This document shows positions 6,596 through 7,842 of a stretch of 64,000 nucleotides of DNA, in pieces. The stretch is from Arenimonas caeni (GTDB lineage Bacteria; Pseudomonadota; Gammaproteobacteria; Xanthomonadales; Xanthomonadaceae). The notes beneath the pieces were generated by a model. The model worked only from the letters and a program-made list of their open reading frames with translations. It made no database searches and was not told the DNA's origin. The DNA lies in NCBI RefSeq assembly GCF_003024235.1, contig NZ_KZ679088.1, positions 62,001 through 126,000 of the forward strand, written 5' to 3'. Made by a program: the position numbers and the translations under genes. Numbering within the stretch: position 1 is the first letter of the stretch; every line of letters begins with the position of its first letter.

Positions 6596-6672
6596 GGCCT
6601 GTAGGAGCGCCTTCAGGCGCGAATCTTCTGCCTTTGCCTTCGGCAAAGAAGGGCTTCGCGCCTGAAGGCGCT
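6596..6672 (+). repeat. REP palindrome interrupted by the IS110 element
   Basis: The sequence starts ggcctgtagg (6596-6605), continues through agcgccttcaggcgcgaa, and returns as ttcgcgcctgaaggcgct up to 6672. The expected last part of the palindrome, cctacaggcc, is missing here but present at 7820-7829 on the far side of the IS. The inner part holds a second hairpin (tgccttcggca, 6635-6645). It lies just after the ubiB stop. Confidence 0.85.
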
Positions 6673-6679
6673 TGTGTCT

Positions 6680-6870
6680 GGCTTTTGCCCTAGGGTTTGG
6701 GGTGAGAGCGGGGTGCGGGACGCCGCTGTTGCGCAGTGCTCGAAAGCACGGGTAGGAGCAAGGGCGCCCGCACCCCATCACCAAGCCAAGCCCGAACAGT
6801 TGTGCGAGTTAGCCGCTCGGATCTCACAAGCGTGGGCCAGCTGGTGTGCTCTCCAGACCAGTCTAGGGGA
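6680..6870 (+). ncRNA. Predicted IS110 bridge RNA in the left end
   Basis: Two candidate guide loops are visible. The target loop has gacgccgct (6719-6727), which matches the left target gaaggcgct at 7 of 9 positions. Next comes a GTGCT-CGAA-AGCAC hairpin (6736-6749), then gtaggagc (6752-6759), an exact reverse complement of the right target gctcctac (7817-7824). The donor loop has acagttg (6796-6802), identical to the right IS end (7811-7817), and cacaag (6825-6830), an exact reverse complement of cttgtg at the left junction (6671-6676). The RNA boundaries are a guess. Confidence 0.65.
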
Positions 6871-6878
6871 GAAAACCG

Positions 6879-7805
6879 ATGTCGGCATTCGTGGGAATTG
6901 ATGTGGCCAAGGGCAGCCTGGCCGTGGCGGTAATTCCGGGAAACCTCGGATTTGAGGTGAGCAACGATGCCAAGGGCCATGCCCGGCTGGTTCGGTGGCT
7001 CGGCAATCAGGCGGTAACCCGGATCCTGCTTGAGTCGACCGGCGGATATGAAAGTGCGCTGGTCGAGGTCTTGGCCAGCCGCTGGGCTGTGGTGCGGGTT
7101 CCGCCCCATCGGGCCCGGGCCTTCGCCACGGCCATGGGCAAGTCCGCCAAGACCGACCCGATCGATGCCTTGATGCTGGCCCGCATGGCCGCGGTCACCG
7201 AGGGTCCGGCCGTGACCCCGCCGACCCCGGCGCAGGCCCGGCTCCAGGCGCTGGTGCGGCGTCGAGGCCAGGTAGTCGCTCATCGCGACGATGAGCGCCG
7301 GCGGCTGCATCAGGCCAATGATGCTTTTGTCCGTCAAAGCTTGCAGCGGCAGATCAAGCATTTGCAGGGCGAAATCGCCCGGCTCGACCGGGAGATCGAG
7401 GCCTGCGTGCCTGATTGCGGCGACGAGCGCGCGGCCAGGCTCCGGGCCGTGCCCGGCGTGGGCGCCGTCACCGTGGCCACCCTGCTGGCCTTCCTGCCGG
7501 AGCTGGGCCAGCTGGAGAACCGTCAGATCAGCGCTCTGGTCGGATTGGCGCCCTACAACTGCGATAGCGGAAAGCACCAAGGCGTACGCCGCATCCGCGG
7601 CGGACGCGGCGCAGTGCGCCGCGTCCTGTACATGGCTGCTTGGAGCGCCGTGCGCCACCAGCCAGACTTCAAGGCCCGCTACGAAGCGCTGCGAGCCAAG
7701 GGGAAATGCGCCAAGGTCGCCTTGGTCGCCTGCATGCGCATCCTGGCAATCCGCCTGAACGCCATGATCAGGGATCAGACCGACTGGAGGGTCCACCCGG
7801 CCTGA
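6879..7805 (+). CDS. IS110-family DEDD recombinase
   Basis: A 308-residue protein. The N-terminal RuvC-like DEDD domain shows GIDVAKG (Asp8), LLESTGGYE (Glu near 49) and [13 protein letters not shown] (Asp-x-x-Asp near 90). A coiled region follows, then the Tnp_20 domain with the helix-hairpin-helix [32 protein letters not shown] (the conserved serine in DSG) and [11 protein letters not shown]. All expected catalytic residues are present, so it is probably active. These enzymes recombine the IS ends with target DNA, guided by the bridge RNA encoded in the element. A purine-rich AGGGGAGA precedes the ATG. Confidence 0.92.
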
Positions 7806-7842
7806 GCAAGACAGTTGCTCCTACAGGCCAGGTTTCCGTCGG

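Follow-up and report, generated by a model that had tools for sequence, protein, structure and literature searches.

The window analysed here is a stretch of 64,000 nucleotides from the Arenimonas caeni genome (2,953,983 bases in 41 contigs). It carries, at positions 6673–7819 of the forward strand, an IS110-group insertion sequence of 1147 bp whose ends were set by comparing copies. The insertion site, a CT core, lies within the second of two arms that form a perfect REP pair, and the first arm is intact (6596–6623, forward strand). The left part of the interrupted REP (6655–6672) ends in the core CT (6671–6672), and a second core CT (7818–7819) opens the stretch that holds its right part (7818–7829). 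Rejoining the flanks without the insert gave a sequence (TTCGCGCCTGAAGGCGCTCCTACAGGCC) that is exactly the intact REP in reverse complement. Together with the presence of an IS110-group recombinase, this bears out the preliminary description of the locus, in which an IS110 element had been placed in a REP with a CT core. The target string GAAGGCGCTCCTACA is present in 38 exact copies in the window's genome, and a reversed control string in none. A second pair of facing REP-like sequences, with one mismatch each, was observed elsewhere in the window (53420–53434 and 53487–53501).

The recombinase (transposase) gene (6879–7805, forward strand) is an intact open reading frame of 308 aa encoding both IS110 domains, PF01548 and PF02371. 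Its product aligned with the recombinases of ISCro4 (E 2.2e-33) and IS621 (phmmer E 7.6e-32), and residues D8, E52, D93, D96 and S230 fell opposite D11, E60, D102, D105 and S241 of IS621, which are named as catalytic in PMC11208158. The domains and the conserved DEDD and serine residues are thus those of the IS110 group, and the relationship to IS621 proposed earlier was supported as a distant one. The closest named relative, 99% identical, belongs to a MAG labelled Arenimonas sp. SCN 70-307, and a relative with 84% identity was found in a contig labelled Rhizobium sp. MAG. Relatives at E 1e-40 or better occurred in 32 of the 247 genomes of the family.

Upstream of this gene, the left end of the element comprises 206 nt of non-coding sequence, as in the IS110 group. 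Four guide segments had been described in it and held to be readable by eye. The right target guide GTAGGAG (6752–6758, forward strand) is the reverse complement of CTCCTAC, and with the next C its match extends to 8 nt exact; the left donor guide ACAGTTG (6796–6802, forward strand) matches the right end of the element, and the right donor guide CACAAG (6825–6830, forward strand) is the reverse complement of CTTGTG. When the left end was dinucleotide-shuffled 5000 times, with exact runs scored and the 7-of-9 match not, the longest exact runs had P values of 0.956 for the left target, 0.087 for the right target, 0.107 for the left donor and 0.277 for the right donor. For the four runs combined, the sum gave P 0.062 and the occurrence of all four at once P 0.0014, their order not being required. 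Guide matches within this one element alone are only suggestive, and relatives were therefore gathered.

To the relatives found in the family, 40 further places from multi-copy genomes were added, which fixed the ends and targets. Flanks were read for 81 of 96 loci, 15 being skipped by a motif rule, and among the 81 some sites were fetched more than once. The alignment of 25 left ends yielded a consensus structure of 29 pairs for a predicted bridge RNA (6704–6853, forward strand) with a GAGAG/CTCTC closing helix at its ends. Thirteen pairs change on both sides, and within the target-loop stem (5′ strand 6710–6724, 3′ strand 6762–6776, forward strand) 10 of the 14 pairs do so. Covariation scored 0.419, compared with 0.132 in shuffles and no more than 0.056 in slid versions; the structure had been predicted from the same alignment rows as were scored, which favours the consensus over the slid versions. 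The count of pair types in the consensus was not above that of shuffles (170 of 500). In the window, the fold of strand 6702–6853 gave a z-score of −4.88, that is, 4.88 standard deviations below its own shuffles. Pairs were formed in 99.0% of 724 cells on the sense strand versus 94.3% on the antisense strand, with 38 versus 4 G:U pairs, and the sense RNA is therefore the selected fold. A bridge RNA in the left end, as had been proposed, is thus supported by a stem that covaries in 25 left ends and by guide slots that track their targets. A 72-nt gap that deletes the right target guide and the left donor guide was observed in the left end of L004/L033 (recorded together with L138 and L142); it may be real or an assembly join, since the genome's remaining left ends also break off around the same hairpin.

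The agreement of each element's guides with its own target was analysed in 22 of the 25 aligned left ends, L007, L042 and L046 having no usable right flank. The left slot agreed at 139 of 176 positions and the right slot at 163 of 176, and neither value was reached in any of 5000 permutations, which ignore relatedness. Within target classes, the left agreement was reached in 12 of 5000 permutations under strict pairing and in 149 of 5000 with wobble, a weaker signal, and covariation of the right target slot within classes was not significant (729 of 5000 strict, 1363 of 5000 with wobble). The targets used by the clade are REPs (right half CTCCTAC), CTAACRCCT|GAATTAAGCC sites, which we take to resemble integron attC, and a CTCTCCCG repeat. 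On the donor side, the left donor slot reads ACGGTTA in elements whose right end is ACGGTTA, and the right donor slot reads ATAAG where the left end is CTTAT. The guides thus covary with the target, by permutation, and with the donor, by inspection only, as in the IS110 group. That REPs are instead chosen by a protein reading the palindrome would fit the finding that all copies read of this lineage lie in REPs, which are as numerous as the 38 exact target strings indicate; relatives that are 41–47% identical nevertheless use quite different targets, the slots in their left ends change with those targets, and IS621 provides a precedent for RNA pairing (PMC11208160), so that we regard recognition by protein as the least probable of the explanations considered here.

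The comparison also altered the assignment of one guide. The segment GACGCCGCT (6719–6727), which had been read as the left target guide, was rejected: the consensus stem takes up five of its nine bases, of which three belong to pairs with changes on both sides, and the target-loop stem, through its 5′ strand, holds most of that proposed guide. In the window the segment agreed with the target at 7 of 9 positions and in other elements at 2 to 7 of 9, and over 10 REP elements it carried no target information at all (20000 of 20000 permutations equal or better). The slot that tracks the target across elements corresponds by homology to 6728–6735 in the window (GTTGCGCA, forward strand), where 4 of 8 positions match (GCGC), or 5 of 8 with wobble. 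At target position −5 the ten REP elements read GCCGTTCCCC, and their homologous guide bases read GCCTTTTCCC, whereas the slot first proposed has C in all ten; the total for the homologous slot was reached in 312 of 20000 permutations, with relatedness ignored. This test omitted L002, a near copy of L001, and L013, which has the other left-end type (3 of 8). The left target guide is thus assigned, by homology, to 6728–6735 and not to 6719–6727, while the right target, left donor and right donor guides stand, in the order first described. The left target guide had been put in the target-loop stem, and the guides are not safely readable by eye; reading of this kind can take a stem for a guide.

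Copies with unchanged guides in unrelated targets were looked for as a refutation of the earlier proposal; the copies read proved to share the REP position, and the proposal was not refuted. Both copies in the window's genome are at the same REP position; in the sister genome G234, seven of seven left flanks read end in CCTGAAGGCGCT and six of six right flanks read start with CTCCTACA; and in G196, a genome of the window's genus, the two left flanks read both end in AAGCCGCT. In five more distant genomes (G117, G134, G006, G153, and G058), all 31 copies are at the same REP position with left flanks ending in CGCT, and their right halves are CTCCTAC in 30 cases and CTCCCAC in one. Target strings contain GGCGCT in 38 of 39 cases in the window's genome (G000) and in 37 of 41 in G234, but G196 has it in 1 of 43; all others contain GCCGCT. 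At that position the left guide carries G in both G000 and G234, whereas in G196, where one copy was read, it carries C. Between these sister genomes the left target guide thus changes together with the majority REP variant of each host, an example that reflects one evolutionary change and serves as an illustration, not as a statistic.

On joining of the two ends, TTG (7815–7817), the core CT and T (6673) rebuild a −35 element, TTGCTT, that precedes with a 17-nt spacing a −10 element, TAGGGT (6691–6696, forward strand), predicted from the sequence pattern. As a sequence pattern, TTGCTT or TTGACT followed after 17 nt by TANNNT was found in 24 of 28 distinct junctions, the background of TANNNT in left ends being 0.0055 per position; in the TTGACT junctions, a gap of one base in the left end makes up for the extra A. 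The junctions lacking this pattern are those of L022, L027, and L111, which have the other left-end type, and L030. A promoter rebuilt at the circle junction is a trait of the IS110 group and has been described for IS621 (PMC11208160).

We therefore consider it highly probable (about 0.88) that the element is an intact, REP-targeting IS110-group insertion sequence working via a bridge RNA, as IS621 does. Its ends, its RNA structure, the tracking of target and donor by the guide slots and the junction promoter sequence were established here by comparing sequences; transcription, binding of the RNA by the protein and recombination would proceed as in IS621. The excised circle would join the right and left ends at CT, thereby rebuilding the promoter (TTGCTT, 17 nt, TAGGGT), from which a bridge RNA of about 150 nt would be transcribed. 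The first loop of this RNA would pair with the REP sequence that flanks the core on either side and the second loop with the two ends of the element, and the DEDD/serine recombinase would then exchange strands at CT. This would add a bridge-RNA recombination system from a high-GC host.

According to the accounts in PMC11208160 and PMC11208158, IS621 of E. coli shares with this element the DEDD/serine recombinase, the REP target, the CT core, the junction promoter and a bridge RNA located in the left end, with the target loop preceding the donor loop. As described there, however, the IS621 RNA begins with a 5′ stem-loop, whereas here the GAGAG/CTCTC helix closes the whole RNA; in addition, about 25 nt and a TANNNT motif separate the closing helix from the start codon in our element, and its opposite strand matches sX15. 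Elements of the IS1111 group, with their seekRNA, also combine a DEDD recombinase with a guide RNA, and some lie in REPs or attC sites (PMC11187229), but in the same account their long non-coding region is downstream, with the guide halves in another order, whereas the region here is upstream. A downstream guide RNA of the IS1111 type was not found in the element, in which about 12 nt of non-coding sequence separate the stop codon from the core.

The opposite strand of the left end matches the Rfam family RF02234, sX15 (6696–6854, reverse strand), antisense to the whole bridge RNA, with 56.4 bits against a curated cut-off of 55; the preliminary description had not noted it. This match, 1.4 bits over the cut-off, is the only one above cut-off in the window. 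Rfam lists sX15, a Xanthomonadaceae sRNA, only as an sRNA. The RNA was reportedly found by dRNA-seq and Northern blots in Xanthomonas. At E 0.001 or better, RF02234 matched 48 of the 247 family genomes, and in 31 of 247 the score exceeded the cut-off (controls, 0 of 14); in a sample of the class, 2 of 369 genomes gave a match, both of the window's family. Among 30 fetched loci drawn from the family-wide matches (L042–L071), 23 adjoin an IS110 gene on the opposite strand, four are cut by a contig end (L043, L066, L067, and L068) and three are remnant-like (L060, L064, and L065), the remnant L060 keeping the first codons. Given this distribution among the 30 loci, with the last three apparently decayed remnants, the idea that stand-alone sX15 copies act as free guide RNAs was rejected. 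In L064 and L065, at about 1501–1671, a decayed left end is present without a transposase gene, apparently at one shared site in two congeneric genomes. A literature search returned no paper linking sX15 or RF02234 to IS110, and RF02234 was named in none of the papers searched. From the arrangement of these loci, we infer that sX15 matches probably represent the left ends of IS110 elements, read from the strand opposite to the transposase gene.

An arrangement of this kind has been described for ISPpu9 of Pseudomonas putida, an IS110-family element that also lies in REPs and has an antisense RNA over its tnp 5′-UTR, a likeness that we draw from the layout (PMC8450116). In that account, the antisense RNA Asr9 is about 180 nt long, has its −10 over the ribosome-binding site, is very stable and controls tnp translation, and transposition rose 3- to 4-fold when it was overproduced. 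Unlike the present element, ISPpu9 also carries Ssr9 downstream, and the sX15 matches in the class sample were confined to the window's own family. The control exerted by Asr9, and the filing of RF02234 as an sRNA on the opposite strand, would suit the view that the left end serves chiefly as an sRNA or mRNA leader governing transposase translation, with incidental matches to the target; the slots, however, track REP, attC-like and CTCTCCCG targets to a degree seen in none of 5000 permutations, and G:U pairs are concentrated on the sense strand. A chiefly regulatory left end is thus quite improbable, and the bridge-RNA reading is retained.

A weaker and separate proposal is that the opposite strand encodes an antisense RNA of the sX15/Asr9 type, which could be made while the element is inserted. 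A possible antisense −10, TAGACT, is located at 6860–6865 (reverse strand), and TANNNT, in six different spellings, is found upstream of the antisense 5′ end in all 22 of the distinct leaders that contain GAGAG. In a wider list it is missing at that place in 5 of 31 loci (L017, L019, L022, L027, and L029). For an antisense −35, none of the spacings between 10 and 29 nt was distinctive, mean matches ranging from 0.73 to 2.0 of 6. For comparison, five plasmid IS110 elements picked from 15 listed matches have TANNNT within 110 nt upstream of tnp in two cases (L146 at 89 nt, L144 at 23 nt), and gave no sX15 match at E 0.01. With a chance that falls a little short of even, sX15 may be an anti-bridge RNA, a full-length mirror made by inserted IS110 copies of this bacterial family from a promoter inside the element, whereas the bridge RNA itself would need the circle. 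Alternatively, the bridge RNA is real and RF02234 has been filed on the wrong strand or represents degraded bridge RNA, an antisense RNA being nonexistent. The selected structure on the sense strand, the lack of a conserved antisense −35 and the narrow excess of the window's score over the cut-off all point in that direction. However, the window's match starts 5 nt past the antisense TANNNT, whereas, taken as a sense 5′ end, its boundary (6696) would coincide with the final base of the sense −10, and Asr9 has the same layout (PMC8450116); we therefore find this alternative less likely than not. If sX15 is indeed an anti-bridge RNA, resident copies would set in trans the guide use or the recombinase translation of a new circle, an orphan sRNA family would be identified, and antisense control of bridge RNAs would become directly testable.

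Further IS110 elements were observed among the relatives. Left ends of the sX15 type are present in elements inserted in CTAACRCCT|GAATTAAGCC sites (L031, L106, L107, L108, L109, L012, L015, L016, L018, L020, L021, and L026), and the guides of elements inserted in such sites match their target at 7 or 8 of 8 positions in the rows used for the own-target test. An sX15-bearing IS110 element is present in five copies (L030 and L102–L105) in the CTCTCCCG-containing repeat; the right guide CGGGAGAG of the L030 element matches at 8 of 8 positions, and runs of N at its ends make the assembly uncertain. Another IS110 left-end type, with a CTTGTATG start and an ACGGTTA right end, was seen in L022, L027, L098–L101, L110, and L111, and no sX15 match was found in L022 or L027. 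Copies of this type have little in common beyond the CT core and the CAG after it, and a CTGAG guide is visible in them.
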